33,920 nt of DNA from an uncultured Chloroflexota bacterium (GTDB lineage: Bacteria > Chloroflexota > Limnocylindria > Limnocylindrales > CSP1-4). Positions within the stretch are counted from its first letter, which is position 1. Every line of letters starts with the position of its first letter. Made by a program: the position numbers and the translations under genes. Positions 2,887 through 26,282 of the stretch are shown piece by piece. The notes beneath the pieces are model-generated. The model ran no database searches and was not told the DNA's origin. It saw nothing but the letters and a program-made list of their open reading frames with translations. Location: assembly GCA_903930745.1 (NCBI GenBank), contig CAIYZX010000181.1:1-33920 (forward strand), in the 5' to 3' direction.

Positions 2887-2905
2887 CCGCCTGCCCCCGC
2901 CTCCG

Positions 2906-4201
2906 TCAGCCGTGCCTGTGGCTGCTCTCGGCCCGGGCGAGCTCGCGGGCGAGGTCCGCAAGCGCCACGATCCGCTGGCTTGCGGCCTGGAGGTCGCGCA
3001 CCTGGACCTGGCCATCGGCCAGCTCGTCGCCCAGGATCACGGCGAAATGCGCGCCGTCCTTGCCGGCGGCCTCCAGCTGGCGGCCAAGCTTGCGACGGCC
3101 CAGGTCCGCGCGAACGCGCAGCCCCGCGGCACGCAGCTCCGTGGCGACCCTGAAGCGGCCCACGGTGTCATCTGGATCCGCGGAGACCACCACGGCGAGC
3201 GGCCCCTCGGCGGTCGCGGCGGCCCCATCGGCCCCCGCCTGCTCGGCGAGCACCAGCGCCACGCGGTCCAGGCCAAGCCCGAACCCGATGCCCGGCGTGG
3301 GCTTGCCGCCCAGCAGCGCCACGAGGCCGTCATACCGGCCGCCGCCGCCCAGCGCCTGCTGCTGGCCCTCGCGGCCGGCCACGTAGAACTCGAAGGCGGT
3401 GCGGGTGTAGTAGTCCAGGCCGCGGACAAGGCCGGGTTCCACGCGGAACGGGACACCAACGGCGGCCAGGTGCGCCTTGACGCTCTCGAAGTGCGCCGCG
3501 CAGGCCTCGCACAGGCGGTCCGTGATGCGCGGTGCGGCGGCGTTGAGCTCCGCCATCGCCGGGTCCTTGGAGTCCAGGAGCCGCAGGACGTTGCGCTCAA
3601 GGCGGTCCAGCTCCGTGGGCGGCAGCACGGCCGCGTGGCCGCGGTAGTACGCGGTCAGCTCCGCCACGTACGCCGGGCGGCACGCCGGGTCACCGATGCT
3701 GTTGACCAGCACCTCCACGTTCCGGACGCCGGCCTCCGTGTAGAAGCGGTGGCCCAGCTCGATGATCTCGGCGTCGATGCCCGGACCCGCGTCGCCGATG
3801 GCCTCCACGTCGAACTGCCAGAACTGGCGGTAGCGGCCGGCCTGGGGGCGGTCGTAGCGGAACATGGGGCCCGTGGTGGTCAGCTTCACCGGCTGCGGCC
3901 ACGTCTGCATGCCGTGCTGCACGTAAGCGCGCACGATGCCGGCCGTGGGCTCCGGGCGCAGCGCCCAGCTCTCGGACTCCTCGGTGCGCGGGGCGATGCG
4001 GAAGAGCTCCTTCTCCACGACATCGGTGACCTCGCCGATCCCGCGCTCGAAGACGCTGGACTGCTCGAAGAGCGGCGTCTCGATGCCGCGGTAGCCGTAC
4101 CGGGTGGTCAGGCTGCTCGCGGTGCGCATGAGGCGGTCGAAGACCGCGCGGTCGTCGGGAAGGAGGTCACGGGTGCCCCGGGGGGCTCGAAAGGCTGCCA
4201 T
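2906..4201 (-). CDS. hisS: Histidyl-tRNA synthetase
   Basis: MAAFRAPRGTRDLLPDDRAVFDRLMRTASSLTTRYGYRGIETPLFEQSSVFERGIGEVTDVVEKELFRI... with class II motifs and the HisRS motif LVRGLDYYTRTAFEF. Confidence 0.95.
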   Translation of the reverse strand: MAAFRAPRGTRDLLPDDRAVFDRLMRTASSLTTRYGYRGIETPLFEQSSVFERGIGEVTDVVEKELFRIAPRTEESESWALRPEPTAGIVRAYVQHGMQTWPQPVKLTTTGPMFRYDRPQAGRYRQFWQFDVEAIGDAGPGIDAEIIELGHRFYTEAGVRNVEVLVNSIGDPACRPAYVAELTAYYRGHAAVLPPTELDRLERNVLRLLDSKDPAMAELNAAAPRITDRLCEACAAHFESVKAHLAAVGVPFRVEPGLVRGLDYYTRTAFEFYVAGREGQQQALGGGGRYDGLVALLGGKPTPGIGFGLGLDRVALVLAEQAGADGAAATAEGPLAVVVSADPDDTVGRFRVATELRAAGLRVRADLGRRKLGRQLEAAGKDGAHFAVILGDELADGQVQVRDLQAASQRIVALADLARELARAESSHRHG

Positions 4202-9092: not shown

Positions 9093-11231
9093 TCAGGCGC
9101 GGCCTGCCGCCACCTCGTCCGCTCGATTGCGTCCGGCGAGGAGGATGAGGTCCTCGTGGAGCTCGAACCACACCCCGTGATAGCTGTCCACGCGTGGCGA
9201 GGCAACGTACTTGCCATTGCCGGCGACGGCGGCAGCCACGGCTGCGCCGAGCCGAACGCCATAGCGCGCGAGCCGCGGCAACGCTGCGGCAGGGGACGCC
9301 AGCCACCGCTCGACCTCCACGTGGAGCTCGCGCAGACTCGCGAGCACCGCCGAGTCGTACACGGGGTCGGTGTGGTCGTTGAAGACTCCCTCGCTTCTCA
9401 TCTGCCAGGACGTCACAACGGTCTTCATCCGATGATCGAGCGCAAGAAAGGCGTCCAGCGCCGCGACCGCGTTCGCAGGCCCCCAGCTTGCCGTGTCCTC
9501 GGCGAGCCTCGCGATGCCCGCCGTCCTGCCCCCGGCAGTAAGGCGGAAGGAGCCGGCGCCCGCCTCGACGAGCCCGTCGGCAACCAGCTGCTCAATGAGC
9601 GAGGACGCGTCCTCGGCGGCGCAGCCGGTGGCGCTGGCAATGCCGTCGGGCCCCGCGTATCCCTTCACGACGAGGGCGCGGATCGCGTCGTGTGCATCAA
9701 CGGGCGCGCGCCCGCCAGCCACGGCGGCGGCAGGGGCACCCTGGGCCCCAGGGGCACCTGCCCCCTCCTGCTCGACGTGGATGCCGAGCTCGCGTGCCCA
9801 TCCAAGCAGCGTGGACACCTCGGGGACGACCGCCTCCACACCGGCAATGGCGCCCTTGAACACCTCTCCCGTGGCGCCGTCGATCGTGATCGTGTCGCCT
9901 CGGCGGATCACGGTGTCCCCTATCGTCACGGTGTCGGACCCGACGTCGACGGTGCTCGCGCCCACGACCGCCGGAATGCCCCACCCTCGCGCCACAACGG
10001 CCGCATGACTGGCGAACCCGCCGGTCGTGGTAAGGACCCCGGCGGCACGACTCATGCCATGCACATCGTCCGGCGACGTCTCCCGGCGAACGAGGATCAC
10101 CCGTGCTCCGCCATCGGCTGCAGTGACCGCGTCCTCCGGTGTCAGCTGGACCTCGCCGCACGCGACGCCCGGCGACGCCGGCAGGCCGCTCGCGAGAGCG
10201 GGGCCCGCATCGGATCGCCCCTTCAAGGTCGTCGGCGGGTTGGCCAGGGCGGATCGCACGCGCTCAACCGCCTGTGCGCGGGTCAACCCGAACGTGGGGT
10301 CCCCGGCCATCTCGACAGCCATCCGCAAGGCCGCCTGGGGCGTGCGCTTGCCGACGCGCACCTGCAGCATCCAGAGCCGTCTGCGCTCGATCGTGAACTC
10401 GATGTCGCAACAGTCACGGTAGTGGCGCTCAAGCGTGGTGGCGTACCTGCGCAGCTCGCCGGCCACCTCGGGCATGCGCTCGCGCAGGCAGCCGATGGGC
10501 TCGGTGACGTGCGTGCCGGCGACGACATCCTCGCCCTGCGCGTTGAACATCACGTCGCCGTAGAGCTCGTTCTCGCCCGTCGCCGGGTTGCGCGTGAAGA
10601 GGACGCCCGTGCCGGAGTCCTCGCCCCTGTTGCCGAAGACCATCGCCTGGACCGTGACACCCGTGCCAAGGTCATCAGGGATGCCCTCCTTCGCGCGGTA
10701 CGCCCTGGCTCGATCGCTGTTCCAGGAGAGGAACACGGCTTCCACCGCACCCCGGAGCTGGTCCCAGGGGTCCGCGGGAACGATCGTCACGCCGACGATC
10801 TCGCGGTAGACCCTGACAAACCGGTCGTGGCAATCTGCCGCGAATGCCGCATCTCCCGAGGTAGCGGCGAGTCCCGCCTCGGTGTCATCGTTGAGGCCGA
10901 GGTTGAGGATGGTGTCCATCATTCCCGGCATGGAACGCGGTGCCCCGGACCGCACGCTCACGAGCAGCGGGTCGGCGGCGTCGCCGAAGCGACGCCCCAC
11001 CTTCTCCTCCAGGCGCGCCATCTGCGCGCGCAGCTCATCCTCGAGACCCGCAGGCCAGCCACCGGCGAGATAGGCGTTGCAGGTGGCCGTCCCCACCGTG
11101 AAGGCGGGCGGTACCGGCAGGCCGAGCTCCACGGCCATGGTGGCGATGTTCGCCGCCTTGCCACCGATCTTGAGCGTGAGCTCGTCCAGAGACAGGCCGT
11201 GATCATGGTCATAGGCAAAGACCTGGGGCAC
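9093..11231 (-). CDS. Truncated pyruvate phosphate dikinase-like protein: ATP-grasp domain, phosphohistidine swivelling domain, C-terminal winged-helix-like region; no PEP/pyruvate TIM barrel
   Basis: MPQVFAYDHDHGLSLDELTLKIGGKAANIATMAVELGLPVPPAFTV..., SVRSGAPRSMPGMMDTILNLGLND, GVLFTRNPATGENELYGD (PPDK N-terminal), TTGGFASHAAVVARGWGIPAVVG (His domain). The remaining ~250 aa do not read as a PEP-binding barrel. Confidence 0.85.
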   Translation of the reverse strand: MPQVFAYDHDHGLSLDELTLKIGGKAANIATMAVELGLPVPPAFTVGTATCNAYLAGGWPAGLEDELRAQMARLEEKVGRRFGDAADPLLVSVRSGAPRSMPGMMDTILNLGLNDDTEAGLAATSGDAAFAADCHDRFVRVYREIVGVTIVPADPWDQLRGAVEAVFLSWNSDRARAYRAKEGIPDDLGTGVTVQAMVFGNRGEDSGTGVLFTRNPATGENELYGDVMFNAQGEDVVAGTHVTEPIGCLRERMPEVAGELRRYATTLERHYRDCCDIEFTIERRRLWMLQVRVGKRTPQAALRMAVEMAGDPTFGLTRAQAVERVRSALANPPTTLKGRSDAGPALASGLPASPGVACGEVQLTPEDAVTAADGGARVILVRRETSPDDVHGMSRAAGVLTTTGGFASHAAVVARGWGIPAVVGASTVDVGSDTVTIGDTVIRRGDTITIDGATGEVFKGAIAGVEAVVPEVSTLLGWARELGIHVEQEGAGAPGAQGAPAAAVAGGRAPVDAHDAIRALVVKGYAGPDGIASATGCAAEDASSLIEQLVADGLVEAGAGSFRLTAGGRTAGIARLAEDTASWGPANAVAALDAFLALDHRMKTVVTSWQMRSEGVFNDHTDPVYDSAVLASLRELHVEVERWLASPAAALPRLARYGVRLGAAVAAAVAGNGKYVASPRVDSYHGVWFELHEDLILLAGRNRADEVAAGRA

Positions 11232-11283: not shown

Positions 11284-12171
11284 TCAAAGGACGGCGACCG
11301 GGTCCACCATCGAGCCCGTGGCGCCGCGGATCTTCACCGGCAGCGCGACGAACAGGAACTCGTAGATCCTCCGGCGGGCAAGCTCCTCGAGATCCAGGCT
11401 CTCCATGATGTAGATGCCGTTCTCGATGAGCAGCCTGGTGTGCACTGGCTGCGGATTGCCCTCCGGTCCCGGGTCGGGTGCCGGCTGGACCTCGAAGGTC
11501 TCCGTGTCCGACCCGGCGGCGACCACGCCTCGCTCAAGCATCCACTGGGCCGCGGACAGGTCGGGGCCGGGCGTCTTGTGCGCGGCCATCCTCTCGGCAT
11601 CGGGCCAGAGGCCCATGTACCCGGTGCGGATGACCACGACATCCCAGGGCCGGACGGCAACGCCTTGAGCTGCACAGATCGCCTCCATCTCGGCGGCATC
11701 GATCGGTGACCCCTTGGGCAGGCACTCGACGCCGCGGAAGGTGGGGGCATCGACGAGGACGCCGCGGGTGAAGAACGGCGGCATGCTGGAGGCATCCCCG
11801 TGCACCGGACCAAAGTCGGTCAGGTGCTCGTCCGCAGCGCCGCCACCGTACCAGTGCATGTCGTCGCCGATCGTCATGTGGGCGAGGGCATCCATGTGCG
11901 CTCCAGAGTGGCTCGTCGCCATGACGTACTCGGCCATGTAGCCGAGGCCCGCGTCATTCACCGGGCCCCACGGCTGGGCACCGGTCACCCGGATCCCGCG
12001 TGGCGTCCGGTAGTTGAGCACCTGGAAGGGCGGGTGGCCCGGGAACAGCGGCATGCCCGGGAACCTGACCGCACTGAGCGAGATCATCTCGCCGGCCTGG
12101 ACCAGGCGCGCCGCCTGGGCGACCTGCGAGGCAGGCATGTCCCCGATGGGGCCGAGCTGGGAACCACTCAC
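11284..12171 (-). CDS. Cyclase-family protein (kynurenine formamidase-like metal-dependent hydrolase)
   Basis: SHSGAHMDALAHM (HxGTHxDxxxH-like), DVVVIRTGYMGLWPDAERM. GTG start overlaps the upstream TGA (GTGA). Confidence 0.85.
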   Translation of the reverse strand: MSGSQLGPIGDMPASQVAQAARLVQAGEMISLSAVRFPGMPLFPGHPPFQVLNYRTPRGIRVTGAQPWGPVNDAGLGYMAEYVMATSHSGAHMDALAHMTIGDDMHWYGGGAADEHLTDFGPVHGDASSMPPFFTRGVLVDAPTFRGVECLPKGSPIDAAEMEAICAAQGVAVRPWDVVVIRTGYMGLWPDAERMAAHKTPGPDLSAAQWMLERGVVAAGSDTETFEVQPAPDPGPEGNPQPVHTRLLIENGIYIMESLDLEELARRRIYEFLFVALPVKIRGATGSMVDPVAVL

Positions 12172-14423
12172 CGCGCACCATCCTCCTGCAGCGCTCGCCA
12201 GACACGTTCGGGCGTCAGGGGCAGATCCCGGATCGGGACGCCGATCGCGTCGCGAACCGCGGCGCCGACAGCGGAGGCGACGCACAGCAATGCACCCTCG
12301 CTCATCCCCTTGGACCCGTACGGGCCGGGCCCGTCCTCGTTCTCGATGATCTCGCTCCGCAGCTCGACCGGCAGATCCATGATCGTCGGGATCCGATAGT
12401 CGATCGCGCCAAGGTTCCGCATCCGTCCACGTTCGTCGTAGATGCAGTGCTCCATCAGCGTGTGACCGAGGCCCATGATCGCCGCACCCTCGTCCTGCAT
12501 CCGGACGTGGAGCGGGTTGAGGGCCTTGCCCACATCGGAGACGGTGATGTGCTTCACCAGCGTCACGTCACCGGTCTCGCGATCCACGTCCGCCTCGATG
12601 ACGGTGCAGTTGAACTCGAAGAAGGCCGGTGCGCCGGAGAGTGGATGCGACGGATCGGCATCCTTGCGCACCTCGCCGAGTCCCGTGATCTCTCCGCCGA
12701 GCCTGCCGAGCCCGGACGCAAGCACCTCCCGAATGGTGAGCACGCGACCGTCGGCGACCCGGACGACGCCGGCGTCAACGATCACGTCCCCCACCTCGAC
12801 ACCCGCGATCCGCGCCGCCAGTGCACCCAGCTTCGCCTGCACGTCCCGGCAGGCCATGAGAACCGCGTTGCCCATCAGGACCGTGGACCGGCTCGCGGAG
12901 GTCTGCTGGTCGTACGGCACGATCGCCGTGTCACCCATGATGACCGTCACCCAGTCCATCGGCGCGCCGAGCTCCTGCGCCACGATCTGCGAGAACACGG
13001 TGCGGGCTCCCTGGCCCATGTCCGAGGTGCCCGCGTAGACGACAGCGCTGCCGTCTCCGAGGAGGCGCACGATCGCGTAGGACAGTCCCGTCGTCGGCCC
13101 CGACTTGATGCCGAGTGCGATGCCACGACCTCGGCCTGGAGGCAGCGGCGCGTCCCAGCCGCCTTCCGAGGCCGCACGGCGCACGGTCTGCTCCCAGTCA
13201 CCGTCGGCAGGGGTGTCGAACGGGATGAAGGCATCGCCCTTCCGCGCCAGGTTGAGCAGGCGGATGGCGAGCCGGTCCATGCCGAGCTCGAGCGCGCCCT
13301 GGTCGAGGTTGGACTCCACTGCCCAGTTGATCTGCGGGTTGCCGAAGCCGCGAAAGGCGGTGGACGGCACCGTGTGGCTCAGCACGCTCCGTGCCAGGAT
13401 CCTCACCGCGGGGATGTTGTACGGCCCGGCCGCCGGGTAGCTGCCCTTGGCAACGACGCGGTCGGCGATGTCCACGTAGGCACCGATCAGGTAGTCGGCC
13501 TCGATGTCCTGGAAGAGGATGTGGCCAGCAGCGTCGAAGCCGGTGCGAACATGCGACGCACAGGCCGCTCGGCGGACCGCCTGGAACGACTCCTCGAGCG
13601 TCAGGACGAGCCTGACAGGTCTACCCAGCCTGAGCGCGGCGAACACCACCGCGGGTTCGTGCTTGGCGTGCTGCTTGCCTCCGAACCCGCCGCCGGGATC
13701 CGGGGCGTGGACACGGACCTTGGAGAGCGGTAGGCCGACGAGGCCGGCAATCTGCTTCTGGAGCCAGTTGGGGTGTTGGATCGTGCTCCAGACCACGACG
13801 CCGTCGCCGTCGGGCGCAGCGATGAACGCGTGGGGCTCGATGGCGAACTGCGTGACGATGGGGAAGCTGTACCGGCCCTCGACGACGAGGTGCGCCTTCG
13901 CCTCCTCGGCCTCGACGTCACCCCAGCCAACGCGGTGCTCGGTGAGCACGTTGCCGAGCGCGAGGCCGGTGTCTCCACGAAGCGCCGGGTCCTGCACGAG
14001 GGGCGCACCCGGCGCGAGTGCCCCGGCGATCGTGAAGACCGCAGGCAGCTCCTCGTAGTCCACCTTGACGAGGGCCGCGGCCCGCTCGGCGAGCTCTCTC
14101 GTGTCGGCCACGACGATCGCCACCGGGTCGCCGTGGTACTTGGTCTCGCGCACCGCGAGCACCGGTCGATCGGCAACCTGTGGGCCATATCGCGGCATCG
14201 GGTCCGGCAGGTCGGCCGCCGTCATGACGAGATGCACGCCAGGGAGTGCGAGCGCCGCCGAGCCGTCGATCCCGACGATGCGGGCCCGCGCACAGTCGAG
14301 GTGGACAAGCTTCGCATGCAGGGCACCCGGCACGTGGAGGTCCGCCAGGTACGCCTGGGCTCCGGTGACCCGGTCAGTCCCGCCGACCCTGTTGGGGGAC
14401 TCCCCGATAGGCGACGCGCTCAT
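12168..14423 (-). CDS. Xanthine dehydrogenase-family molybdopterin-binding subunit
   Basis: MSASPIGESPNRVGGTDRVTGAQAYLADL..., DPGGGFGGKQHAKHEPAVVFAALRLGRPVRLVLTLEESF, TAFRGFGNPQ, TSDMGQGARTVFSQI, GSKGMSEGALL (catalytic Glu region). Confidence 0.93.
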   Translation of the reverse strand: MSASPIGESPNRVGGTDRVTGAQAYLADLHVPGALHAKLVHLDCARARIVGIDGSAALALPGVHLVMTAADLPDPMPRYGPQVADRPVLAVRETKYHGDPVAIVVADTRELAERAAALVKVDYEELPAVFTIAGALAPGAPLVQDPALRGDTGLALGNVLTEHRVGWGDVEAEEAKAHLVVEGRYSFPIVTQFAIEPHAFIAAPDGDGVVVWSTIQHPNWLQKQIAGLVGLPLSKVRVHAPDPGGGFGGKQHAKHEPAVVFAALRLGRPVRLVLTLEESFQAVRRAACASHVRTGFDAAGHILFQDIEADYLIGAYVDIADRVVAKGSYPAAGPYNIPAVRILARSVLSHTVPSTAFRGFGNPQINWAVESNLDQGALELGMDRLAIRLLNLARKGDAFIPFDTPADGDWEQTVRRAASEGGWDAPLPPGRGRGIALGIKSGPTTGLSYAIVRLLGDGSAVVYAGTSDMGQGARTVFSQIVAQELGAPMDWVTVIMGDTAIVPYDQQTSASRSTVLMGNAVLMACRDVQAKLGALAARIAGVEVGDVIVDAGVVRVADGRVLTIREVLASGLGRLGGEITGLGEVRKDADPSHPLSGAPAFFEFNCTVIEADVDRETGDVTLVKHITVSDVGKALNPLHVRMQDEGAAIMGLGHTLMEHCIYDERGRMRNLGAIDYRIPTIMDLPVELRSEIIENEDGPGPYGSKGMSEGALLCVASAVGAAVRDAIGVPIRDLPLTPERVWRALQEDGAR

Positions 14424-14896
14424 CGTCCGGCCTCCGAGGCGGCCAGGACTGCGTCCGTGATCTGCTCGTAGCAGGCGCAGCGGCACAGGTTTCCGGCCAT
14501 GCCCTCCGCGATCTCCTCCCGGGTTGGATGGGGGTTCAGGTCCAGCAACGCGTGGGCTGACATGAGCTGCCCGGGGATGCAGAAGCCGCACTGCACCGCG
14601 CCCTTGTCCAGGAACGAGGTCTGCAGCGTCGACAGGCGGCCATCGGCGGACGAGAGCCCCTCGACGGTGAGAATCACCGCCCCATCCGCCTCCACCGCGA
14701 GCACCAGGCACGAGTCCACGGCACGTCCGTCCACGATGACCGTGCAGGCGCCGCATTCGCCGACGAGGCAGCACTCCTTGGTTCCCGTCAGTCCGAGATC
14801 GTCGCGCAGGACATCGAGCAGGGTGTGCTGGGGTGCCACGTCCAGCACGCGTCGCCGGCCATTGACCGTCAGCTCGATGGGAAGGGTGAGCGTCAC
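14420..14896 (-). CDS. (2Fe-2S)-binding subunit of molybdenum hydroxylase
   Basis: TLPIELTVNGRRRVLDVAPQHTLLDVLRDDLGLTGTKECCLVGECGACTVIVDG...QCGFCIPGQLMSAHALL...GNLCRCACYEQI. ATGA overlap with the next gene. Confidence 0.93.
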   Translation of the reverse strand: MTLTLPIELTVNGRRRVLDVAPQHTLLDVLRDDLGLTGTKECCLVGECGACTVIVDGRAVDSCLVLAVEADGAVILTVEGLSSADGRLSTLQTSFLDKGAVQCGFCIPGQLMSAHALLDLNPHPTREEIAEGMAGNLCRCACYEQITDAVLAASEAGR

Positions 14897-14897
14897 G

Positions 14898-15764
14898 TCA
14901 CTGCTCCCCCGCCGCCAGGCGCTCGAGCGCGATGGCAAGGGCACGTCTGCCCAGGACACGCAGCATCGCGAGACGGTACTCGGGTCCGGCCCGCATTGAG
15001 GTCGCGGATGGGGAGGCATCGGCGAGGATCGTCGCAAGGACGTCGGCCCTGGCGGCATCCGGCGCGCCGGGGTCGGCCAGCACACCAGAGGTGTCCACCC
15101 GGACCAGCGGTCGCGGCCCCACGCTCCCAAAGGCGACCCTGGTCACGCCCGCTGCGTCCACTCCGCAGGCCAGCGTGACGGAGGCGAGATCATGACCCCG
15201 TCGGCGCGTTCGACGCTGGTGGGCACTGGCGATCCGGCTTGCGGGCATTGGGACCTCCACTGCAACCACCAGTTCGCCGGGGGCGAGCGTCGTGATCCCG
15301 GATCTGACGAACAGGTCGTCCACGGCGATCCGGCGCACTCCCGTCGGACCCGCTGCCACGACCCGGGCATCGTGCACGAGGAGCGGGGGTGCCGTGTCGG
15401 CGGCGGGCGAGGCATTGCAGATGTTCCCGCCCAGCGTCGCGCGATTGCGGATCTGGATGGAGCCGACAGCTGCGGCCGCCTCACCGAGCGCGTGGGCATG
15501 CCTGCGCACGATCGGACTGGCGGCGATCTCGGTCATTGTCGTTGTCGCACCGATCACGATCGTCCCGGCCTCGTTGCGGATCCCGGGCGCAAGCTCAGGG
15601 ACGCGCTTGATGTCCACCACGAGGGCAGGCGAGGCAGAGCCGTCGCGGAGCCGGATGATGAGATCGGTTCCACCGGCGAGCACGCGAGCACCAGGGCCGC
15701 GCTCGGCGAGGAGCGCGAGCGCGTCCGCGAGCGTGTTGGGACAGGCGTAGGCGAATGGTTGCAT
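14898..15764 (-). CDS. FAD-binding subunit of molybdenum hydroxylase (CoxM/XDH-B-like)
   Basis: MQPFAYACPNTLADALALLAERGPGARVLAGGTDLIIRLRDG..., GSIQIRNRATLGGNICNASPAADTAPPLL. Confidence 0.93.
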   Translation of the reverse strand: MQPFAYACPNTLADALALLAERGPGARVLAGGTDLIIRLRDGSASPALVVDIKRVPELAPGIRNEAGTIVIGATTTMTEIAASPIVRRHAHALGEAAAAVGSIQIRNRATLGGNICNASPAADTAPPLLVHDARVVAAGPTGVRRIAVDDLFVRSGITTLAPGELVVAVEVPMPASRIASAHQRRTRRRGHDLASVTLACGVDAAGVTRVAFGSVGPRPLVRVDTSGVLADPGAPDAARADVLATILADASPSATSMRAGPEYRLAMLRVLGRRALAIALERLAAGEQ

Positions 15765-15786: not shown

Positions 15787-16674
15787 CTAGAGGATCCTGT
15801 CGACCTCGTCCATCAGCACCTGCGGGCTGGAGGCACGGATGAAGTAGAAGGGACGCTGACAGAAGTCGTCAACGAACTGGGCGCGGCGGGCACGGAGCAC
15901 GTCGTTGTCCACCATCGGCATGACGTGCCCGGGAGCCAGCAGCTCGTTGGTGAGAAGGTAGTTCTGCAGGGAGTGCAGGAACTGGAAGCCCCGCTCGAAC
16001 GGGATGAGCTCGTTGGTCGCCGGGTCGAAGTTCCCATCGATCGCCGGGACGATCACGAGGTCGATGTTCGGAGTGCCCTCATACCTGCCCCACGTGGGCA
16101 TTGTGCCCCAGAACTTCTCGACGCCCTTGTTGGGGGCGGCCTTGTCCGAGCGCTCCGTGCCCTCGGTTCGCCTGACCAGGAACGTGTCCTCGGAGCCCGC
16201 CACGGCTCGCCCGTCATCGCTGATGACCGTCGTCTCCGATGCGACCTGGAGCGCGCCGCGCACGCCGGCCTCGATCAGGCCCATGCTCTTGCCGTGATTG
16301 GACTCGCCCCCCAGGAACAGGAACGTCTTGCCCCGGTAGTTCACGGCGGCGCTGTGGCTCGGGTGCTCCCCCTTGGCCTCCATGCGCAGCGCCAGCATCG
16401 CCACGATCGCCTTCTGCAGCGGTCCGGCCGGCCAGCTGCCGGTGAACGTCATCGTCCGCCCGTCGTAGGACGCGCGCTTCGCTCCGTCCTGGTTCCATAC
16501 GATGTCCGGCGCCTCGAGCGTCACCGCCGGGGAGATCCGCACGTCGGCGAGCCTGTAGTTCAGGAAGTTGAGATCGTCGAGCACGTGCTCGCGAGGCTCG
16601 CCGCCGTAGACGTCGATGCGGAGGCGGGCCTTGCCTGCCGAGAACTCCTCTGTAAGGCGCAGGTTGCTGTTCAT
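15787..16674 (-). CDS. HPr kinase/PEPCK-like P-loop protein of unknown function
   Basis: HSAAVNYRGKTFLFLGGESNHGKSMGLIEAGVRGAL (Walker A GESNHGKS after a beta strand, as in HprK) followed by TTVISDDGRAV. ATG overlaps the GntR stop (ATGA). Confidence 0.6.
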   Translation of the reverse strand: MNSNLRLTEEFSAGKARLRIDVYGGEPREHVLDDLNFLNYRLADVRISPAVTLEAPDIVWNQDGAKRASYDGRTMTFTGSWPAGPLQKAIVAMLALRMEAKGEHPSHSAAVNYRGKTFLFLGGESNHGKSMGLIEAGVRGALQVASETTVISDDGRAVAGSEDTFLVRRTEGTERSDKAAPNKGVEKFWGTMPTWGRYEGTPNIDLVIVPAIDGNFDPATNELIPFERGFQFLHSLQNYLLTNELLAPGHVMPMVDNDVLRARRAQFVDDFCQRPFYFIRASSPQVLMDEVDRIL

Positions 16675-17426
16675 GGGATCCCTTCCGGTGTGTGAGCGGG
16701 TTCCGGCCCCGTGCCGGTTCGTGCGGCGGGTGAGGGCTGATGCTGATCGGCTTCGCCATCACCCGGTCCGGGCTCCAGCCAGAGCGTGGCCAGCATCGTC
16801 CGCGCGTCGCTGAAGTGGGTCCGGATGGCCGTCTCGGCGGCTGTCCCGTCGCGGCGTCGGAGGGCATCGAGCACAGGGCCGTGTAGCCCGGCGATCCGAC
16901 GCCGGTCCGAGCCGGCCACCGCGAGCGTGATGTACGTCCGGGAGTACGGCTCGAGGAGGCCCCAGACCCGCTTCAGCGTCTTGTTCCCGCTGACGTCCAC
17001 GAGATACCCGTGGAAGGCGGCGTCGGCAGAGGCCTCCCCCACCGTGTCTCCGGCCTCTGCGCCTGCGTGCATCGCGTCCAGGAGAACGCCGAGCCGCTCG
17101 ACGTCATCGTCGGTCAGCCTGGGCACCGCGAGACGTACAACGAGCGCCTCCAGTTCGGACCGGACGACATACGCCTCGAGAAGCTCATCACGAGAGGGAC
17201 GGCGGACCCGGGCGCCGCGAAACGCGGCGATCTCCACGACTCCGAGGGCCTCGAGATCTCGGAGGGCCTCGCGGACAGGCGCCTGGCTCGTCCCGAACTC
17301 GCGCGCCACCCGGGTCTCAATGATCCGGGACCCGGGCTGATAGCGGCCGTCAAGGATCGCCTCGAGCAGGCGATCCTTGACGGTGTCGGACAGGACGCTG
17401 CGTGAGATCGTCGTCTCGGCAGCCAT
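16671..17426 (-). CDS. GntR-family transcriptional regulator, FCD-type (paralog 1)
   Basis: VKDRLLEAILDGRYQPGSRIIETRVAREFGTSQAPVREALRDLEALGVVEIAAFRGARVRRPS plus a helical C-terminal FCD-like domain. Confidence 0.92.
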   Translation of the reverse strand: MAAETTISRSVLSDTVKDRLLEAILDGRYQPGSRIIETRVAREFGTSQAPVREALRDLEALGVVEIAAFRGARVRRPSRDELLEAYVVRSELEALVVRLAVPRLTDDDVERLGVLLDAMHAGAEAGDTVGEASADAAFHGYLVDVSGNKTLKRVWGLLEPYSRTYITLAVAGSDRRRIAGLHGPVLDALRRRDGTAAETAIRTHFSDARTMLATLWLEPGPGDGEADQHQPSPAARTGTGPEPAHTPEGIP

Positions 17427-17453: not shown

Positions 17454-19187
17454 CTAAAGGATCGTCACGATGCCGGCGGTGCCGTCCACGCGGAGACGGT
17501 CGCCGGTCCTGATGGTCGAAGTGGCAACCGAGGTGCCCACGACGGCAGGGATCTCGTACTCGCGCGCCAGCACGGCCGGGTGCGAGACAGTACCGCCGGC
17601 GTCGGTCACGACGGCGGAGATGTGGCCGTAGAGGACCTGCCAGGCCGGGTTGGTCATCTGGCAGACGAGGATCTCGCCCTCGAGCAGGCTGTCGAACTCC
17701 GCCTCCGACATGACGACACGCGCCACGCCCTCAACGACGCCCGGCGAGCCGGCGATGCCCCTGACCTGGCCGGCCACCTGCACCTGCGAGCGGGTGAACT
17801 TGTCGGGGAAGCCCCAGAGGTTGAGGTACGGGAAGGCGAGCTGTGTCGCGGTGACCGTGCCGACCCAGTCACGCGGCTGCACCTTTTCGGCAGCCGCACG
17901 CTTGGCCTTGGCGGCGGCGACGATCGCCCTCCCGTCCATGGAGGACGGGTTGCCGATGAAGGCGCGCAGGTCGTTGTAGCGGAACAGGATGACGTCGTCG
18001 GGCGCGTCGAGGACGCCCTGTGCCACGAGCTTCTCGCCGACGGCGATGAGCACGAGGCGCACGTGGGCATTGGCACCCTGGTCGATGTAGAAGTGGTGGT
18101 CCGGGGTGAGCGGCGCCATCTTGAGGTTGATCTCGTTGGCGGCGCGCATCTCCTCGAGCGCCTCGCCCTCGAGGCCCTCGAGGATCTCCCTCGCGGCTGC
18201 GTCGATATCGGCCGCCAGGGTCGCGATGCGTGCCGGGTAGTCGTAGTCGGACGAGAACTGGTCCCGCACGAGCTGGACGACCGGGATCATGTCCTCCCGG
18301 AAGCTCGGGAAGATGAACTCATGGCTCCAGACGGCGTGCCAGCCGAACTCCTTCTGGTACGGCACGATCCGCTCGTCGATGAAGCGTCGACCGCGTGCGC
18401 TTGCCCTGAGGGAGGGCAGGATCTCGGCCCCGGACGCGGCGGCGAAGATCGCGGCCAGCTCGGCGTCGGCCTTGACCTCCTCCTTCGCCTCCCAGAGGGC
18501 CTTGATCTTGTCCCAGTTGCGGTCGTTGGCCGAGTTCTGGAGCCGGCCGAGCAGGGCCTCATTGACCCTGCCATGCGTCTTCTCCATGACCGCCCGAAGG
18601 TTGAGCGTCGCGCTCAGCTGCGCGAAGTTCAGCATCCAGTGGATCTTCCAGTGGCGGTCGTGCATGTCGATGGCGTCCTCGAGCAGGACGGCCACCTCGG
18701 CCAGGGAGAGCTGGTCCTTCTGGTCCAGCATGCCCTCGATGTAGTCGAAGTTGCGCTGCATCTCCGGGACGAAGCGGCTTCGCCACCAGTCGGTGAACTT
18801 GAGGCCGTACACCGGCAGGACTGCGCCCAGGTACGCGCCGATCCTGCCGGCGTATGCGTTGTCCTCGGGGACGATCGGGTGGGTCGAGTAGTTGTACTCC
18901 TGGGTCGCGACATCGACGCCGGCCTCGGCCGGGATCGCCGCCGTGTACAGGTAGCCGTTGACGTTCTTGTAGATCCAGTCCGACGCGAACGGCGTGCCGA
19001 AGCGGCGGAACATGTGGTCGCACGAGAGCCACCAGCCGCCGATGTCCTCGTACATCGGTGACAGGGGCTTGGGGCAGTGCAGGTCGTCGTAGACCCAGAA
19101 GAGATCCTTCTCGGTCTCGGACGTCCACTCCACGGGGAACGACTCGTCCCCGAGGAACTGGTCCAGGACTTCTTCCTTCAGCGGCAC
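17454..19187 (-). CDS. PEP-utilizing enzyme with C-terminal phosphohistidine (mobile) domain and N-terminal helical domain; no ATP-grasp
   Basis: C-terminus VVTDAGGTVSHPAVLAREYEIPAVVGTSVATSTIRTGDRLRVDGTAGIVTIL is a PEP-utilizer mobile domain. N-terminus FWVYDDLHCPKPLSPMYEDIGG resembles the substrate/linker region of rifampin phosphotransferase-like proteins. Confidence 0.82.
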   Translation of the reverse strand: MPLKEEVLDQFLGDESFPVEWTSETEKDLFWVYDDLHCPKPLSPMYEDIGGWWLSCDHMFRRFGTPFASDWIYKNVNGYLYTAAIPAEAGVDVATQEYNYSTHPIVPEDNAYAGRIGAYLGAVLPVYGLKFTDWWRSRFVPEMQRNFDYIEGMLDQKDQLSLAEVAVLLEDAIDMHDRHWKIHWMLNFAQLSATLNLRAVMEKTHGRVNEALLGRLQNSANDRNWDKIKALWEAKEEVKADAELAAIFAAASGAEILPSLRASARGRRFIDERIVPYQKEFGWHAVWSHEFIFPSFREDMIPVVQLVRDQFSSDYDYPARIATLAADIDAAAREILEGLEGEALEEMRAANEINLKMAPLTPDHHFYIDQGANAHVRLVLIAVGEKLVAQGVLDAPDDVILFRYNDLRAFIGNPSSMDGRAIVAAAKAKRAAAEKVQPRDWVGTVTATQLAFPYLNLWGFPDKFTRSQVQVAGQVRGIAGSPGVVEGVARVVMSEAEFDSLLEGEILVCQMTNPAWQVLYGHISAVVTDAGGTVSHPAVLAREYEIPAVVGTSVATSTIRTGDRLRVDGTAGIVTIL

Positions 19188-19244: not shown

Positions 19245-20072
19245 CTACGAGGCCTTCGAGATCCTCTTGAACCTCTTCATGTTCTCGGTGATGGCGATCT
19301 CGGTGGGGAGTCGCTCCATCGAGGAGGCACCGAAGAACCCGGCGACGCCGGTGGTGTGGGTGAGCACGTACTCGGCATCCTCGGGCTCGGCGATCGGACC
19401 GCCATGGCAGAGCACGATGATGTCCGGCTTCACGGCAACGGCAGCGTCGCGGATCGCCTGGACACGCTCGGCCGAGGCCTCGATCGTGAGAGCCGTGGTG
19501 GCGCCGATGGCACCCTTGGTGGTGAGGCCCATGTGCGCGACGATCACGTCGGCGCCAGCGGCGGCCATTGCCGCCGCCTGGTCGGTGTCGAAGACGTACG
19601 GCGTGGTGAGCAGACCGGCGTCGTGCGCCTGGCCGATCATCTCGACCTCGAGGCCGAACCCCATGCCGGTCTCCTCGAGGTTCTGCCGGAACTGTCCGTC
19701 GCACAGGCCAACCGTCGGGAAGTTCTGGACGCCGGAGAACCCGACCCGCTTGATCTCCTCGAGGAACACCGGCATCAGCCGGAAGGGGTCCGTGCCACAG
19801 ACACCGGCGAGGACCGGTGTCTCGCGGACGACCGGCAGCACCTCGGCGGCCATCTCCATGACGATCGCGTTGGCATCGCCGTAGGGCATGCAGCCCGCCA
19901 GCGAGCCGCGTCCGGCCATCCGGTAGCGCCCCGAGTTGTAGATGATGATGAGGTCGGCGCCGCCTGCCTCGGCGCACTTCGCGGAGAGACCTGTGCCCGC
20001 GCCGGCGCCCATGATCACGCCGCCCTGGGCCACCGTTGTGCGCAGCCGTGCAAGCGCCTGCTGCCCGTTCAT
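19245..20072 (-). CDS. TIM-barrel protein of the phosphoenolpyruvate hydrolase family (C-terminal half of plant Tm-1-like proteins)
   Basis: [71 protein letters not shown]...[12 protein letters not shown]...[14 protein letters not shown]. Confidence 0.88.
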
Positions 20073-20091
20073 GCCAAGGACCTCCTTGTCC

Positions 20092-21321
20092 CTATGCCTG
20101 CTTCGCGGCCCACGCGCGGTAGTGCGCGTCGAGCTTGTCGGCCATGGCCGTCGCGAAGGCGGGATCGTTGATGTCGGCGGCCATCTCGACCACCTCGACG
20201 TCGGGCCGGAGACCGGCCTTCAGCTCCCGGATCAGGGCCGCATCCGCGGCCGCATCGTGGAAGGGGCCACCCGGGGTCGCGATCATGGAGACGCCGCCGA
20301 GAGGGATGAAGACCGTGAGGGGTCCCTTGGCCAGGTTGAGCTTGCGGGCGATGATCCGCCCGAGTTCGGCACACTCCTCCTCGGTGGTCCGCATCAACGT
20401 CACCGTGGCGTTGTGCACGTAGAGGTTGCGATCGTTGAACTGGGCCGGAACGGTCTCCCGCGGGCCGAAGTTGCACATGTCGAGCGCGCCGAGCGAGACG
20501 ACCTGCGGGATCCCCAGGGAGCCGGCCATCTCGAGCCGGTCGGGGCCTGCGGAGAGGACGCCGCCCACGAGCTCGTCCACGAGCTCCGTGGTGGTCGCGT
20601 CGAGGGCGCCCGTGATGAAGCCCGCCTTCATGAGGGCCTCCATCGACTGGCCGCCGGCACCGGTGGCGTGGAAGACGAGAACCTCGTAGCCGAGCGCCTC
20701 GAGCCGCTCGCGAGCTGTTGTGACGCAGGGGGTTGTGACGCCGAACATCGTGGCCCCGATGAGTGGCTTCCTCGCGATCCGGGACACGAAGCCGTCGGTG
20801 GCCTTCGCCATGCCCGCGATGGCGGCTGCGGCGTTGGTCAGGATCTTCTCCGACAGGCCGTTGATGCCGGCGATGTCCACCACCGAGTACATCATCGCGA
20901 TGTCGGAAGTCCCCACGTATGGGCGGGTGTCACCCGAGGCCATCGTGGAGACGATCAGCTTGGGCACGCCCACCGGCAGTGCCTGCATGGCCGCGGCAGC
21001 GATCGACGATCCGCCAGAGCCGCCGATGCCGAGTACTCCGTGGAGCCTCCCCTCGGCATACAGGCGCCTGGTCACCTCGACCGCGCCGCGCGTCATCGCG
21101 GCGACCGCGGGGCCGCGGTCGTGCGCTGCCACCAGGGCCGCACGGTCCACGCCCGCCGCTGCAGCAACCTCGTCGGCCGTCACGTCGGCAGCCGGCGAGT
21201 CGCTCATCACGCCCGCATCGACCACGACGACGTCGCAACCGCCTTCACGGACACGCTCGCGCAGGAACTCGTACTCGGGTCCCTTGGTGTCCAAGGTGCC
21301 GAGGAGCACGACGCTCGCCAT
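20092..21321 (-). CDS. Tm-1-like ATP-binding domain protein (UPF0261)
   Basis: [39 protein letters not shown]..., [93 protein letters not shown]. Confidence 0.9.
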
Positions 21322-21333
21322 GTGAAATGCCTC

Positions 21334-22134
21334 CTAGGGGTTCGCCGCAGGTGCGGCAGGAGTCTCGGTGTGCCCGATGTGGGTGCTCACGCCCAGGTAG
21401 CGTCGCTGGGCCACCTCGTCGTCGGCGAGGTCGTCAGACGTCGTCTCAAGCGCAATCCTGCCCGTGACCATGATCGCGATGCGCTCCGAGACGGCCGTGG
21501 CCACGCCAAGGTTCTGCTCAACAAGGAGCAGAGCCACTCCCTCGCGAGCGAGGTTGTGGAGCGTCTCCACCATGTGCTCGACGACGATCGGGGCAAGCCC
21601 CTCGGAGGGCTCGTCCATGATCAGGAGGCGTGGATTGAGGAGCAGTGCCCTGGCGATCGCGAGCATCTGCTGCTCGCCACCGGAGAGCTGGGTCCCGCCA
21701 TTGCGACGGCGGGCCTGCAGTGAGGGGAAGAGGTCGTAGACCTTCTTGATGGTCCAGCCATCGCTGCCCCCGCCGGACACCATCCGGAGGTGCTCGTCGA
21801 CCGACAGCGACGCGAAGACGCGCCGGCCCTGGGGGACGTAGCCGATCCCGGTGCGGGCGATCTCGTGCGGCTTGAGGCCGATCAGCTCCTGGCCATGGAG
21901 CCGGATCGAGCCGCCGAACGCGGGCACGAGGCCCATGATCGCGTTGCACAGGGTGGACTTGCCCATCCCATTTCGCCCGATCAGCGACAGCGGCCGCCGG
22001 TTCACCACGAGATCCACGCCCTGGAGGACGTGGCTCTGGCCGTATCGGACATCCAGGCCGGAGACCTGGAGCACGGGCACGGCCCCTGTCTCGGCCGGCA
22101 CATCCGGCTGGGGCGCGACAGCCTGCTCAGCCAT
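21334..22134 (-). CDS. Branched-chain amino acid-type ABC transporter ATP-binding protein (LivF-like)
   Basis: SLIGRNGMGKSTLCNAIMGL (Walker A), GIGYVPQGRRVFASLSVDEHL, LSGGEQQMLAIARALLLNPRLLIMDEPSEGLAP. Start chosen at MAEQAVAP. Confidence 0.92.
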   Translation of the reverse strand: MAEQAVAPQPDVPAETGAVPVLQVSGLDVRYGQSHVLQGVDLVVNRRPLSLIGRNGMGKSTLCNAIMGLVPAFGGSIRLHGQELIGLKPHEIARTGIGYVPQGRRVFASLSVDEHLRMVSGGGSDGWTIKKVYDLFPSLQARRRNGGTQLSGGEQQMLAIARALLLNPRLLIMDEPSEGLAPIVVEHMVETLHNLAREGVALLLVEQNLGVATAVSERIAIMVTGRIALETTSDDLADDEVAQRRYLGVSTHIGHTETPAAPAANP

Positions 22135-22912
22135 TGCGGGCTCCCACTGCATGCCCAAGGTAGATGTCCTGGACCTGGCGGTTGTCCTGGATCTCGTCGG
22201 GGTTGCCCTCGACGAGCGGTGTGCCCTCGGCCATGACGGTCACCCGGTCCGCCACGGCGAGCGCGACGTCCATGTCGTGCTCAACGATGACGACGGTGAT
22301 GTCCCTCGGGAGCCCCTGGATCAACGAGGTGAGGTTGATGCGCTCAGCACGCGACAGGCCTGCGGCCGGCTCATCGAGCATCAACAGGCGTGGGTTGCCC
22401 GCGAGGGCCATTCCCACCTCCAGCTGGCGCTGCTGCCCATGCGAGAGTGCGCCCACCGGCGCCGCGAGGGCGTCGGCCAGCCCCACGATCGCTGCGATCT
22501 CCGCCGCCCGGACCCGTGACGGATCATCCGCCTTGGGTCTCGTGGGCCAGAAGCGTCGGCCCTGGACCCCCCGGATCGCCAGGAACAGGCTCTGCGCCAC
22601 GGTCAGACCCATGAACAGCTGCGATGTCTGGTACGTCCGGCAGACGCCGAGCCTGGTGCGCACGTACGGCGGCAGGTTCGTGACATCCGTGCCGAACAGC
22701 TCGACGCTGCCGGAGGTGGGCGGGAAATCGCCGGCGACCACGTTGAACAGGGTCGTCTTCCCGGCCCCGTTGGGACCAAGGATCGCTCGACGCTCGCCCG
22801 CGGCCACCTCCATGCTCGTGTCGTGCAGCGCCTGGAGGGCGCCGAAGCGCCGCCCCACACCCTGCAGACGCAGGGCGGGGGCAGACGCTTCGGCTGCCAT
22901 CCGATCGGTCAC
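22127..22912 (-). CDS. Branched-chain amino acid-type ABC transporter ATP-binding protein (LivG-like)
   Basis: AILGPNGAGKTTLFNVVAGD, LSHGQQRQLEVGMALAGNPRLLMLDEPAAGLS, VIVEHDMDV. Confidence 0.92.
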   Translation of the reverse strand: MTDRMAAEASAPALRLQGVGRRFGALQALHDTSMEVAAGERRAILGPNGAGKTTLFNVVAGDFPPTSGSVELFGTDVTNLPPYVRTRLGVCRTYQTSQLFMGLTVAQSLFLAIRGVQGRRFWPTRPKADDPSRVRAAEIAAIVGLADALAAPVGALSHGQQRQLEVGMALAGNPRLLMLDEPAAGLSRAERINLTSLIQGLPRDITVVIVEHDMDVALAVADRVTVMAEGTPLVEGNPDEIQDNRQVQDIYLGHAVGARNG

Positions 22913-24195
22913 GGGCAGCTCGGGAAGTCGCGGCTCACCGGCTGGGCGAGATACGGGCTCGTCGCACCGAGGCCAAGCGTCTGGTCGACGCCGTCGGCCT
23001 TGGAGATGACGTTGTTCTGCAGGGTGCCGTCGGCAGCCTTCTGCACTTCGGTGACGTAGTTGGAGCTGATCGCCTGGCGGTTGCCGTCAAGGCTGACGTG
23101 TCCCGTCGGGCCATCGAACTCGACCTTGGCAAGGGCCGCCATGAAGGCTGCCTGCTTGTTGGAGAGGTCGCCCTTGACGGCCTGGAGGGCCTTGAGGACG
23201 CCGACCGTCTCGTTGTAGTAGCTGAGGGCAAAGAGTCCCGGGAACGGCAGTCCGTCCTTGAACTCCTTGTGGTACTCGGCCACGTAGTCGAGCCATGCCT
23301 TGTCGGTCGCGGTGTCGGCAGTCGGGCCGGCTGCGATCGTGCCGGCGAGGATGTCCTGGAAGGCACCCTTGGTCGCGAGCACCGACTGGTCCACCGTGAT
23401 GGAGCCGCCGATGAACTTGGCCTTGCCGCCAGCCTGGTTGTACTGGGTGAAGAAGTTGACCGCGTCCGAGCCGCCGAGCGCGACGTAGATCGCGTCGATG
23501 CCGGATGTCGGCAGGTTGGACACGACGGACGAGTAGTCCTTGGTGCCGAGCGGGACCCAGTTCTTCTGGACAACATGGCCACCGGCCGCGCAGAACTCGT
23601 ACATGAAGCCGCCAACCTGCGTGTACGGGAACGAGTAGTCCTCGGCCACGAGGGCGACGCTCTTGTAGCCCTTCTTCTCAAACGCGTACTTGCCGAGGCC
23701 GGCCATCCACTGGGCACCGTCGGTCGAGAAGCGGAAGAAGTTGGGGGCGGCATCGCGGAACGTCGTGTCCTGGGCCGCGGACGACCCGTTGACGAACGTC
23801 TTGTCCGGCACGGTCTTGGCGTAATCCTTGATCGCGAGACCCTCGTCACCGGAGAGAGGGCCGATCAGGATGTCGACGTTGTCCTGCTCGATGAGCTTCT
23901 TCGCCTTCTCGAGGGCAACGGCCGGCGTGGCGTCGGAGCCCTCCTTGAGCAGCTGGACCTGGAAGCCCTCGAACTGCCAGTTGCCGTTGTCGAGCTTCTT
24001 GCCGAGAGTGTTGAGCGCCTGCTCGACACCACGGAAGCCATCCTGACCGGGCACCGCGAACGGGCCCTCGAGGGTGGCGAGTCCGCCGATCTTGATGACC
24101 TTGTCACCGCCGCTCGAACCACCGCACCCGGCGGCGGCGATCGATGCAACGAACATCAGGGCGACGAGCCCGCGGCCCGTCCTCGTTCCGAACAT
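22909..24195 (-). CDS. ABC transporter substrate-binding lipoprotein (Leu/Ile/Val-binding type)
   Basis: Signal and lipobox VALMFVASIAAAGCGGSSGG, then VIKIGGLATLEGPFAVPGQDGFRGVEQALNTLG..., periplasmic-binding type I style. Confidence 0.92.
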   Translation of the reverse strand: MFGTRTGRGLVALMFVASIAAAGCGGSSGGDKVIKIGGLATLEGPFAVPGQDGFRGVEQALNTLGKKLDNGNWQFEGFQVQLLKEGSDATPAVALEKAKKLIEQDNVDILIGPLSGDEGLAIKDYAKTVPDKTFVNGSSAAQDTTFRDAAPNFFRFSTDGAQWMAGLGKYAFEKKGYKSVALVAEDYSFPYTQVGGFMYEFCAAGGHVVQKNWVPLGTKDYSSVVSNLPTSGIDAIYVALGGSDAVNFFTQYNQAGGKAKFIGGSITVDQSVLATKGAFQDILAGTIAAGPTADTATDKAWLDYVAEYHKEFKDGLPFPGLFALSYYNETVGVLKALQAVKGDLSNKQAAFMAALAKVEFDGPTGHVSLDGNRQAISSNYVTEVQKAADGTLQNNVISKADGVDQTLGLGATSPYLAQPVSRDFPSCP

Positions 24196-24285
24196 CAGTC
24201 CTCCTCTCAGCGATGGCCGCACAAGGTAGTGCGGGTCCACGCGACCTCCGTACCGGTATGTCCTGGTGGTGCCTCCTCCTGTTGA

Positions 24286-25407
24286 CTACCCTCCCGATGG
24301 GACATCGTCGCCCGCAGGCACGCCCGGAGCTCCAGGTGCTGTCACGGTGGATGCCGACGCGATGCCTGCCTCGGCCGCAAGTGGGTCCACGGCGCGGCGC
24401 CGTCCCCCGCCGCGATGGGTGAGCGCCACGAATGCACGATCGGCGAGGCCCACGATCCCGTTGGGCGCCACGAGCACGATCAGCAGGAAGCCAAGTCCGA
24501 TGAGCGTGTTGAACCGCTCGTCGAACGAGAAGCCGGCGATCGTGATGCTGCTCGCGAAGACCTTGATCAGCGTGTAGATGACGGCGCCCACGAACGCACC
24601 GATCGGATAGCCCAGGCCACCGAGGACGGCGACGATCAGGACTTCGATCGTGCGGCTGAGATCAACGATCCCGGGCGAGATGTTGCCGCGGTACCACGCG
24701 CCCAGGACCCCCGAGATGCCCGCCACGAAACCGCCGATGGCAAACAGGGCGACGCGATGGCCGCCAACGCGGTACCCCAGGGCGGCCATGCGGCGCGGAT
24801 TGTCCCGCACACCCTGGAACGTCAAGCCCAGCTGTGACCTCACCAGGTAGCGCAATCCGAGGTAGACCGCGGATGCCGTTCCGAGGCAGAGGTAGTAGAA
24901 GACGGGCGGATCCTGCCGTGGGAGGCCCGTGGGGCCCTCGATGCCGGCGAAGCCGATGTGGCCGCCGAAGACGTCGTAGTTCTGGAGGACGATGTAGTAG
25001 AAGCCCACGGACAGCGCGAGCGTGAGCATCAGGAAGTAGATGCCGTACGAGCGCGACGAGATGGCCCCGAACAGGGCGCCGAGCGCCGTGGCCAGTGCGA
25101 TGGCGATGAGTGCGGACGGGATCGCGGGCAGGCCCGCCCCGAGCGTCGATCCGGTGGCGTTCGTGCTGGGCTCGAGGCTCAGGAGCGCAACCATGTAGGC
25201 CGCGAAACCGGCAAGGGCGGCCTGGGCCAGCGAGGTCATCCCGCCATAGCCCGCCATGAAGACGAGGCTCAGAGCGGCGATGCCCAGGATCATCGCGTTG
25301 GCGCCGATGGACAGCACCCAGAACCGGGGCATCACCTGCGGGTAGATGACCAGGACCACGAGGACCGCCAGCGTCGCGATGCCCTGGCGGCTGCGCACCC
25401 AGGTCAT
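24286..25407 (-). CDS. ABC transporter permease (LivM-like)
   Basis: MTWVRSRQGIATLAVLVVLVIYPQVMPRFWVLSIGANAMILGIAALSLVFMAGYGGMTSLAQAALAGFAAY..., hydrophobic multi-TM. Confidence 0.92.
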   Translation of the reverse strand: MTWVRSRQGIATLAVLVVLVIYPQVMPRFWVLSIGANAMILGIAALSLVFMAGYGGMTSLAQAALAGFAAYMVALLSLEPSTNATGSTLGAGLPAIPSALIAIALATALGALFGAISSRSYGIYFLMLTLALSVGFYYIVLQNYDVFGGHIGFAGIEGPTGLPRQDPPVFYYLCLGTASAVYLGLRYLVRSQLGLTFQGVRDNPRRMAALGYRVGGHRVALFAIGGFVAGISGVLGAWYRGNISPGIVDLSRTIEVLIVAVLGGLGYPIGAFVGAVIYTLIKVFASSITIAGFSFDERFNTLIGLGFLLIVLVAPNGIVGLADRAFVALTHRGGGRRRAVDPLAAEAGIASASTVTAPGAPGVPAGDDVPSGG

Positions 25408-26282
25408 GCCGGTCGCCCCAGCAGTCCCTGCGGACGGATCGCAAGGACGCCGGCCATGATCACGAACGTGATGAAGATCGAGTAGGTCGGGGCGTAGAAG
25501 AGGCCGATCTGCTCGGACAGGCCGATGATCAGCGCCCCGATGACCGCGCCTCCGAGGCTGCCCATGCCACCGACGATGACCACCACCAGTGAGCTGAGCA
25601 GGTATCGGCCGTCCTCGCTCGGCGAGATCGACAGGGCCGTTGCCCCCACGACCCCTGACAGTCCGGCAAGTCCCGCTCCCAGCCCGAAGACGAAGAGGAA
25701 CACCCGGGAGACGTTCACTCCGAGGGCCGAGAGCATGTCCCGGTCATCGATCCCCGCCCGGATGTACCAGCCGATCCGGGTCCGGTTCAGGACCAGCCAC
25801 AGGGCGCCATAGACGGCTGCCGCCAGGGCGATGATGAACAGCCGGTAGGCGGAGTACGTGCCGTTGACGACAAACGGGATTGCGACCGAACCCGCGGCAA
25901 AGGGCGGTGGCTCGATCTGGTAGGTCAGACCTCCGTACTTGGCGAGCAGCAGGTCCGCGATGATGATCGAGAGCCCGATCGTGACGAGCGCCTGGCGCAG
26001 ATCCTGCCCTGCCATCCGCGAGAGCAGTCCAAGGTGGATGACGATGCCGACCACGGCCACCGCAGCGAAGCCGATCACGAGCGCTGCGAACCAGTTGCCG
26101 GTCGCCTCGTAGGCGCTGACTCCAACATAGGCACCGAGCATGTACAGCGAGCCGTGCGCCATGTTCGTGGTGCGCATCAGGCCGAAGATCAGCGTGAACC
26201 CGCTTGCGACGATGAAGTACAGGGCGGCAAGCGTGACACCGTTGACCAGGACCGTCAGGAAGTCGACGAGCGCCTTCGGCAA
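25404..26282 (-). CDS. ABC transporter permease (LivH-like)
   Basis: FLTVLVNGVTLAALYFIVASGFTLIFGLMRTTNMAHGSLYMLGAYVGV...GGMGSLGGAVIGALIIGLSEQ. Confidence 0.92.
   Translation of the reverse strand: MPKALVDFLTVLVNGVTLAALYFIVASGFTLIFGLMRTTNMAHGSLYMLGAYVGVSAYEATGNWFAALVIGFAAVAVVGIVIHLGLLSRMAGQDLRQALVTIGLSIIIADLLLAKYGGLTYQIEPPPFAAGSVAIPFVVNGTYSAYRLFIIALAAAVYGALWLVLNRTRIGWYIRAGIDDRDMLSALGVNVSRVFLFVFGLGAGLAGLSGVVGATALSISPSEDGRYLLSSLVVVIVGGMGSLGGAVIGALIIGLSEQIGLFYAPTYSIFITFVIMAGVLAIRPQGLLGRPA

Follow-up and report, generated by a model that had tools for sequence, protein, structure and literature searches.

The window, 33,920 nucleotides of DNA from an uncultured Chloroflexota bacterium, carries on its minus strand a gene of 295 codons that we call KIN (Table 1). 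Position, strand and length of the frame agreed with an earlier note on this DNA, and the stretch quoted there, HSAAVNYRGKTFLFLGGESNHGKSMGLIEAG...TTVISDDGRAV, is present in the translation. The start of KIN sits within the stop of the GntR/FCD gene, so that the ATGA coupling described before is visible in the sequence, and a CoxM-type FAD gene follows. KIN is a single copy in the host genome. Its 76 relatives and 69 invariant alignment columns exclude a chance or spurious antisense frame, and KIN is a real gene.

The genes from 26282 down to 9093 run on one strand with short gaps or overlaps and would probably be read as a single transcript; the description of KIN as embedded in a catabolic operon was right. 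Both phosphohistidine-domain proteins announced for this operon, PEPut and PPDK712, were found on the KIN strand. Judged by their domains, they apparently form a two-component dikinase with two His domains. The last ~250 amino acids of PPDK712 have no Pfam match, and its orthologs occur in about 32 of the 76 KIN loci. The UPF0261 and PEP_hydrolase genes adjoin (19245-21321, minus strand); in plant Tm-1-like proteins the two halves are fused (PMC5028733). Elsewhere in the window lie a split transketolase (N half 28888-29754, C half 29751-30695, both plus strand), whose nearest solved relative is the split-chain transketolase 6yak and which stands beside the KIN cluster in other phyla too, and an ORF (736-3015, minus strand) matching Phage_holin_4_2 plus a phosphodiesterase/nucleotide pyrophosphatase domain.

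Table 1. Genes of the KIN operon and residues of the KIN product, with coordinates in the window.
Feature	Coordinates	Strand	Basis
KIN, compact PEPCK/HprK-clan P-loop protein, 295 aa	15787..16674	-	ORF, translation, relatives, AF2 model, Foldseek
GntR/FCD regulator, 4-bp ATGA overlap with KIN	16671..17426	-	domain search, sequence
PEPut, acceptor-binding and His-swivel protein, 577 aa, HpeH/PpsA/RPH type, no ATP-grasp	17454..19187	-	PEP-utilizers domain; PMC12167813
PEP_hydrolase-like TIM barrel (PF09370)	19245..20072	-	domain search
UPF0261 protein	20092..21321	-	domain search
Branched-chain-amino-acid/urea-type ABC transporter: 2 ATPases, binding protein, 2 permeases	21334..26282	-	domain search
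CoxM-type FAD subunit, 22 bp downstream of KIN	14898..15764	-	next gene in 69/76 loci
CoxS-type 2Fe-2S subunit	14420..14899	-	domain search
CoxL-type molybdopterin subunit, start approximate	12168..14420	-	domain search
Putative cyclase PF04199, start approximate	11284..12285	-	domain search
PPDK712, PPDK_N ATP-grasp and His-swivel protein, 712 aa	9093..11231	-	PPDK_N and PEP-utilizers domains
Walker A, G123-ESNH-GKS130	16285..16308	-	invariant 37/37
K88, equivalent of E. coli PEPCK Lys213	16411..16413	-	ungapped alignment to ATP-PEPCK; invariant
H107, equivalent of E. coli PEPCK His232	16354..16356	-	alignment; invariant
S/T146-E147, at the DD position of HprK-like proteins	16234..16239	-	L141/L142 register; E147 invariant
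D153-D154, 'DD' of the earlier note	16213..16218	-	variable in family

Fold and active-site residues of KIN

Pfam and NCBIfam searches with KIN returned no family match, and no PDB sequence family claims it. A profile search of the PDB with the KIN alignment gave ATP-PEPCK as its top match (E=0.0047, residues 67-130). Among 37 members tested, 16 produced sub-threshold matches to PEPCK_ATP (PF01293; best E 0.016) and 10 to Hpr_kinase_C (best E 0.022); none passed the Pfam cut-off of either family, and the host KIN itself (P0001) gave no PEPCK_ATP match. Aligned by hhalign to 20 Chloroflexota ATP-PEPCKs, KIN scored 44.6 over 63 columns (32% identity), and still 37.9 with the P-loop masked, while 100 full column shuffles reached at most 33.8 and 100 shuffles keeping the P-loop at most 25.4. 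Since the masked score exceeds every shuffle, the match is more than a Walker motif. Direct sequence similarity to PEPCK is nonetheless confined to residues ~62-136, and the N-terminal substrate domain of PEPCK has no sequence match in the 295 residues of KIN.

The AlphaFold (AF2) model of KIN (pLDDT 90.2, pTM 0.88) pointed the same way: the 35 best Foldseek matches in the PDB are all ATP-PEPCKs (E 4.7e-8 to 3.8e-6), followed by GTP-PEPCK, with HprK appearing only from E ~1e-3. The TM-scores against ATP-PEPCK, 0.40-0.46, mean that the chain superposes only in part. A fold search of viral proteins found viral PEPCK alone. By profile score alone, the HprK-like proteins L141, L142 and L108 are as near to KIN as PEPCK is, and statistical sequence support for the clan covers residues ~64-158, the remainder resting on the model. 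KIN thus shares the P-loop kinase fold of the PEPCK/HprK clan (Foldseek 4.7e-8; hhalign above all 200 shuffles) and very probably belongs to it; on the predicted structure it is nearest to ATP-PEPCK, yet is neither a PEPCK nor an HprK. The original assignment to an HprK/PEPCK-like P-loop protein was correct, the PDB profile, hhalign and Foldseek evidence leaning to PEPCK over HPr kinase.

The host carries its own canonical ATP-PEPCK (a fragment at a contig edge), while HprK was not found, and HPr (PF00381) was absent at E<=0.1, in an assembly about 90% complete. Neither classical job is therefore vacant or possible for KIN, and we rejected it both as the PEPCK of this genome, given the canonical enzyme, and as an HPr kinase, given that no HPr was detected. 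We also observed a divergent PEPCK_ATP group in G008, G017, G021, G040, G045 and G054, scoring about 240-250 bits vs the usual about 700.

In E. coli PEPCK, Lys213, His232 and Asp269 are ligands of the metal (Mn), the DD after the P-loop being Asp268-Asp269; in HprK, the first Asp of the DD serves as catalytic base. K88 and H107 of KIN, which are spaced as in PEPCK with no gap between them, match the Lys213 metal-ligand and His232 positions in this numbering, and along the same alignment K129 falls on Lys254 and S130 on Thr255. As far as aligned residues go, this establishes motif equivalence to PEPCK at all four sites. They are invariant in 37/37 KIN sequences, as are E147 and R175, the latter part of an invariant GTER motif and a candidate for the role of PEPCK Arg333. 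Other features are particular to the family. The P-loop is unlike those of PEPCK and HprK, with N126-H127 in place of the clan's Gly and small residue, and position 146 is Ser/Thr in 37/37, where the HprK DD has its first Asp. This placement of S/T146-E147 comes from the HprK-like register of L141 and L142, direct alignment to Asp268-Asp269 of PEPCK being ambiguous; E147 is a putative metal ligand. The 'acidic DD' that had been read as an HprK layout does not hold up: Asp occurs at 153 in only 5/37 and at 154 in only 15/37 sequences, and the invariant acid is E147. By inspection, L141 lacks a Lys where KIN has K88.

Distribution and genomic neighbourhood

A scan of 84,980 species genomes recovered 76 relatives of KIN (50-85% identity), the majority full length and the others cut by contig ends; as the scan was pattern based, this number is a lower bound. 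Going by record titles, about 46 are from Chloroflexota, 21 from Actinomycetota, 4 from Dormibacterota-like genomes and 2 from Spirochaetota, with 3 unplaced. Mean column identity is 74% over the 37 aligned sequences. We rejected plasmid spread, there being no match among 72,556 plasmids searched. An apparent 755-aa KIN fusion (L046) turned out to be a spurious upstream read-through in which no domain was found.

All loci fall in the same catabolic gene set. CoxM (CO/xanthine-dehydrogenase-type FAD subunit) is present in 74 of the 76, CoxS in 68, CoxL in 67, PEPut in 62, the cyclase in 43, an alcohol dehydrogenase (ADH) in 37 and the 712-aa PPDK_N protein in 32, counts that are lower bounds because of contig ends. 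Split transketolase, transaldolase-like, ALDH, SDR, metallo-beta-lactamase-fold, cupin, UPF0261 and PEP_hydrolase genes also occur, and some clusters have a separate XdhC-type maturation gene. CoxM lies directly downstream of KIN in 69/76 loci (median gap 15 bp), and a GntR gene directly upstream in 48/76. In Spirochaetota, CoxLSM is encoded on the strand opposite to KIN, and a stand-alone PPDK_N gene precedes KIN. KIN has moved across at least four phyla together with one uncharacterised catabolic gene cluster. A literature search on this cluster found nothing, and PDB and literature searches with the neighbour genes gave no conclusion on the substrate of the pathway.

The conserved neighbourhood link sought for KIN exists, then, and is strong. 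Among 107 host-family genomes, 46 carry KIN and PEPut, 5 PEPut alone and 56 neither, so that PEPut accompanies KIN in 46/46 cases (Fisher p 5e-25, a value inflated by genome relatedness). In contrast, three Actinomycetota genomes (two Actinotalea-type, one Propionibacteriaceae) have KIN with cyclase, ADH, CoxMSL and UPF0261 and lack orthologs of both PEPut and the 712-aa protein: searches with PEPut gave nothing or weak, partial matches, and those with the 712-aa protein hit ~900-aa ORFs resembling ordinary PPDK. In the isolate Actinotalea lenta, the source of L017, cyclase, ADH and CoxMSL accompany KIN and there is no dikinase. Exceptions in the opposite direction come from the host-family genomes with PEPut alone. 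Of these five, one reflects a contig end; among the remaining four (L131-L134), the KIN slot is empty or, in the two clusters with a transaldolase-like gene there, KIN is absent next to it, while the Cox genes and at least the 577-aa phosphohistidine protein, if not both, are kept. The PEPut tree requires four separate losses of KIN. These exceptions both ways indicate that the cluster can do without KIN, that KIN is not tied to the phosphohistidine system and that control of PEPut cannot be its general job.

In PPDK and PEP synthase a regulatory Thr precedes the catalytic His by two residues. Among the PEPut orthologs tested, 35 have Val and 20 have Thr at this position, and we rejected regulation through such a Thr as a general mechanism. 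This lack of conservation, the three KIN genomes with neither protein and the four clusters without KIN weaken the suggestion that KIN might act as a regulator of one of the swivelling-domain proteins. We checked whether some PEPut orthologs have lost the catalytic His, which is not so. KIN as a stand-in for the ATP-grasp subunit missing from PEPut was also rejected: the operon itself encodes an ATP-grasp protein (9093-11231), and Spirochaetota have a stand-alone PPDK_N gene ahead of KIN.

Possible roles and relation to known systems

KIN is probably an active ATP-dependent phosphotransferase. Our best guess is that it is accessory to the catabolic pathway as a putative ATP-dependent small-molecule kinase, both the activity and the type of acceptor being what we infer from the observations above. 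More precisely, we tentatively favour a compact phosphotransferase from the PEPCK/HprK clan that would bind ATP and pass phosphate to a small-molecule intermediate of a pathway comprising a CoxMSL-type molybdenum hydroxylase, a cyclase, an alcohol dehydrogenase, transketolase/transaldolase and, usually, the two-component phosphohistidine dikinase. ATP-Mg would bind the Walker-A loop (K129, S130) and a second divalent metal would sit on K88, H107 and E147, like Mn on Lys213, His232 and Asp269 of PEPCK. The acceptor of the gamma phosphate might then be a small intermediate, acidic or hydroxylated, bound by N-terminal residues that are invariant and specific to the family and by the R169/GTER175 loop. 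A small-molecule acceptor is favoured by the PEPCK-type metal site and by the travel of KIN with catabolic enzymes, and opposed by its dispensability. Transketolase and transaldolase relatives use sugar phosphates, and their presence among the cluster genes counts in favour. Against it, the cluster usually has a complete dikinase already, so that a second kinase needs a reason. A replaceable enzyme could have been lost four times from otherwise intact clusters, and an accessory or regulatory role would fit these losses equally well.

Those losses would also be expected of a regulator, and the equal profile scores of PEPCK and HprK-like relatives, together with the GntR gene directly upstream in 48 loci, agree with a protein kinase of the HprK kind or an ATP-dependent regulator acting on GntR, Cox subunits or phosphohistidine proteins. 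We consider this unlikely, because KIN has the PEPCK-type Lys that L141 lacks and Ser/Thr for the first Asp of the HprK DD, the host has no detected HPr or HprK, three genomes have KIN without phosphohistidine proteins and the regulatory Thr in the swivel motif of the 577-aa protein is unconserved. Proximity to CoxM would suit an ATP-dependent factor that matures or activates the adjacent CoxMSL-type molybdenum enzyme, since Cox-type clusters commonly carry accessory ATPases; yet four clusters retain Cox genes without KIN, the two are on opposite strands in Spirochaetota, the XdhC-type gene occurs separately and a PEPCK-type metal site is unexpected in such a factor, which makes this quite improbable.

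We give little credence to two further readings. A true carboxykinase, using ATP to decarboxylate some beta-keto acid, not oxaloacetate, with an enol phosphate as product, would explain why the nearest structural relatives are PEPCKs and why the metal-ligand Lys and His are retained, but KIN has 295 aa against about 530 and no match to the PEPCK substrate domain. A degenerate kinase, binding nucleotide as a sensor without phosphotransferase activity, could account for the odd P-loop GESNHGKS and the Ser/Thr at 146, but the invariance of the Walker Lys and Ser, K88, H107 and E147 in all four phyla speaks against it.

So far the PEPCK fold has been known chiefly for a single central reaction and for protein kinases like HPr kinase. 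A protein half as large, with this fold and the PEPCK metal site, in a widespread catabolic cluster would, if true, broaden its known uses. It is possible, if somewhat unlikely, that KIN is the first of a new family of PEPCK-fold metabolic kinases, using a catabolic intermediate as substrate beside a phosphohistidine dikinase in four phyla. KIN also marks an uncharacterised Chloroflexota/Actinomycetota pathway in which a molybdenum hydroxylase is combined with an HpeHI-type dikinase, and the natural clusters with and without KIN make its role directly testable.

Compared with ATP-PEPCK (PF01293), KIN has the same fold by Foldseek, the 63-column match over the Lys213 helix and the His232 strand up to the P-loop, and the equivalents of Lys213, His232, Lys254 and Thr255. 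It differs in being half as long with a sequence match limited to the core, in its P-loop (GESNHGKS vs GLSGTGKT) and in having Gln/Asn for PEPCK Lys212. HPr kinase and HprK-like proteins (PF07475) share with KIN the P-loop core, the upstream His and the helix after the P-loop, L141 and L142 aligning with residues 97-158; KIN departs from them in S/T-E for DD, in the K88 Lys absent from L141 and in the far weaker Foldseek E. Likeness to the two-component small-molecule dikinases HpeHI, CreHI and PpsAB (PMC12167813) and to rifampin phosphotransferase belongs to the neighbours of KIN only, PEPut having the acceptor/His-swivel layout and PPDK712 the ATP-grasp. PPDK712 differs from these systems in its extra His domain and C-terminal part, and KIN, with neither ATP-grasp nor swivel domain, corresponds to no part of those enzymes.
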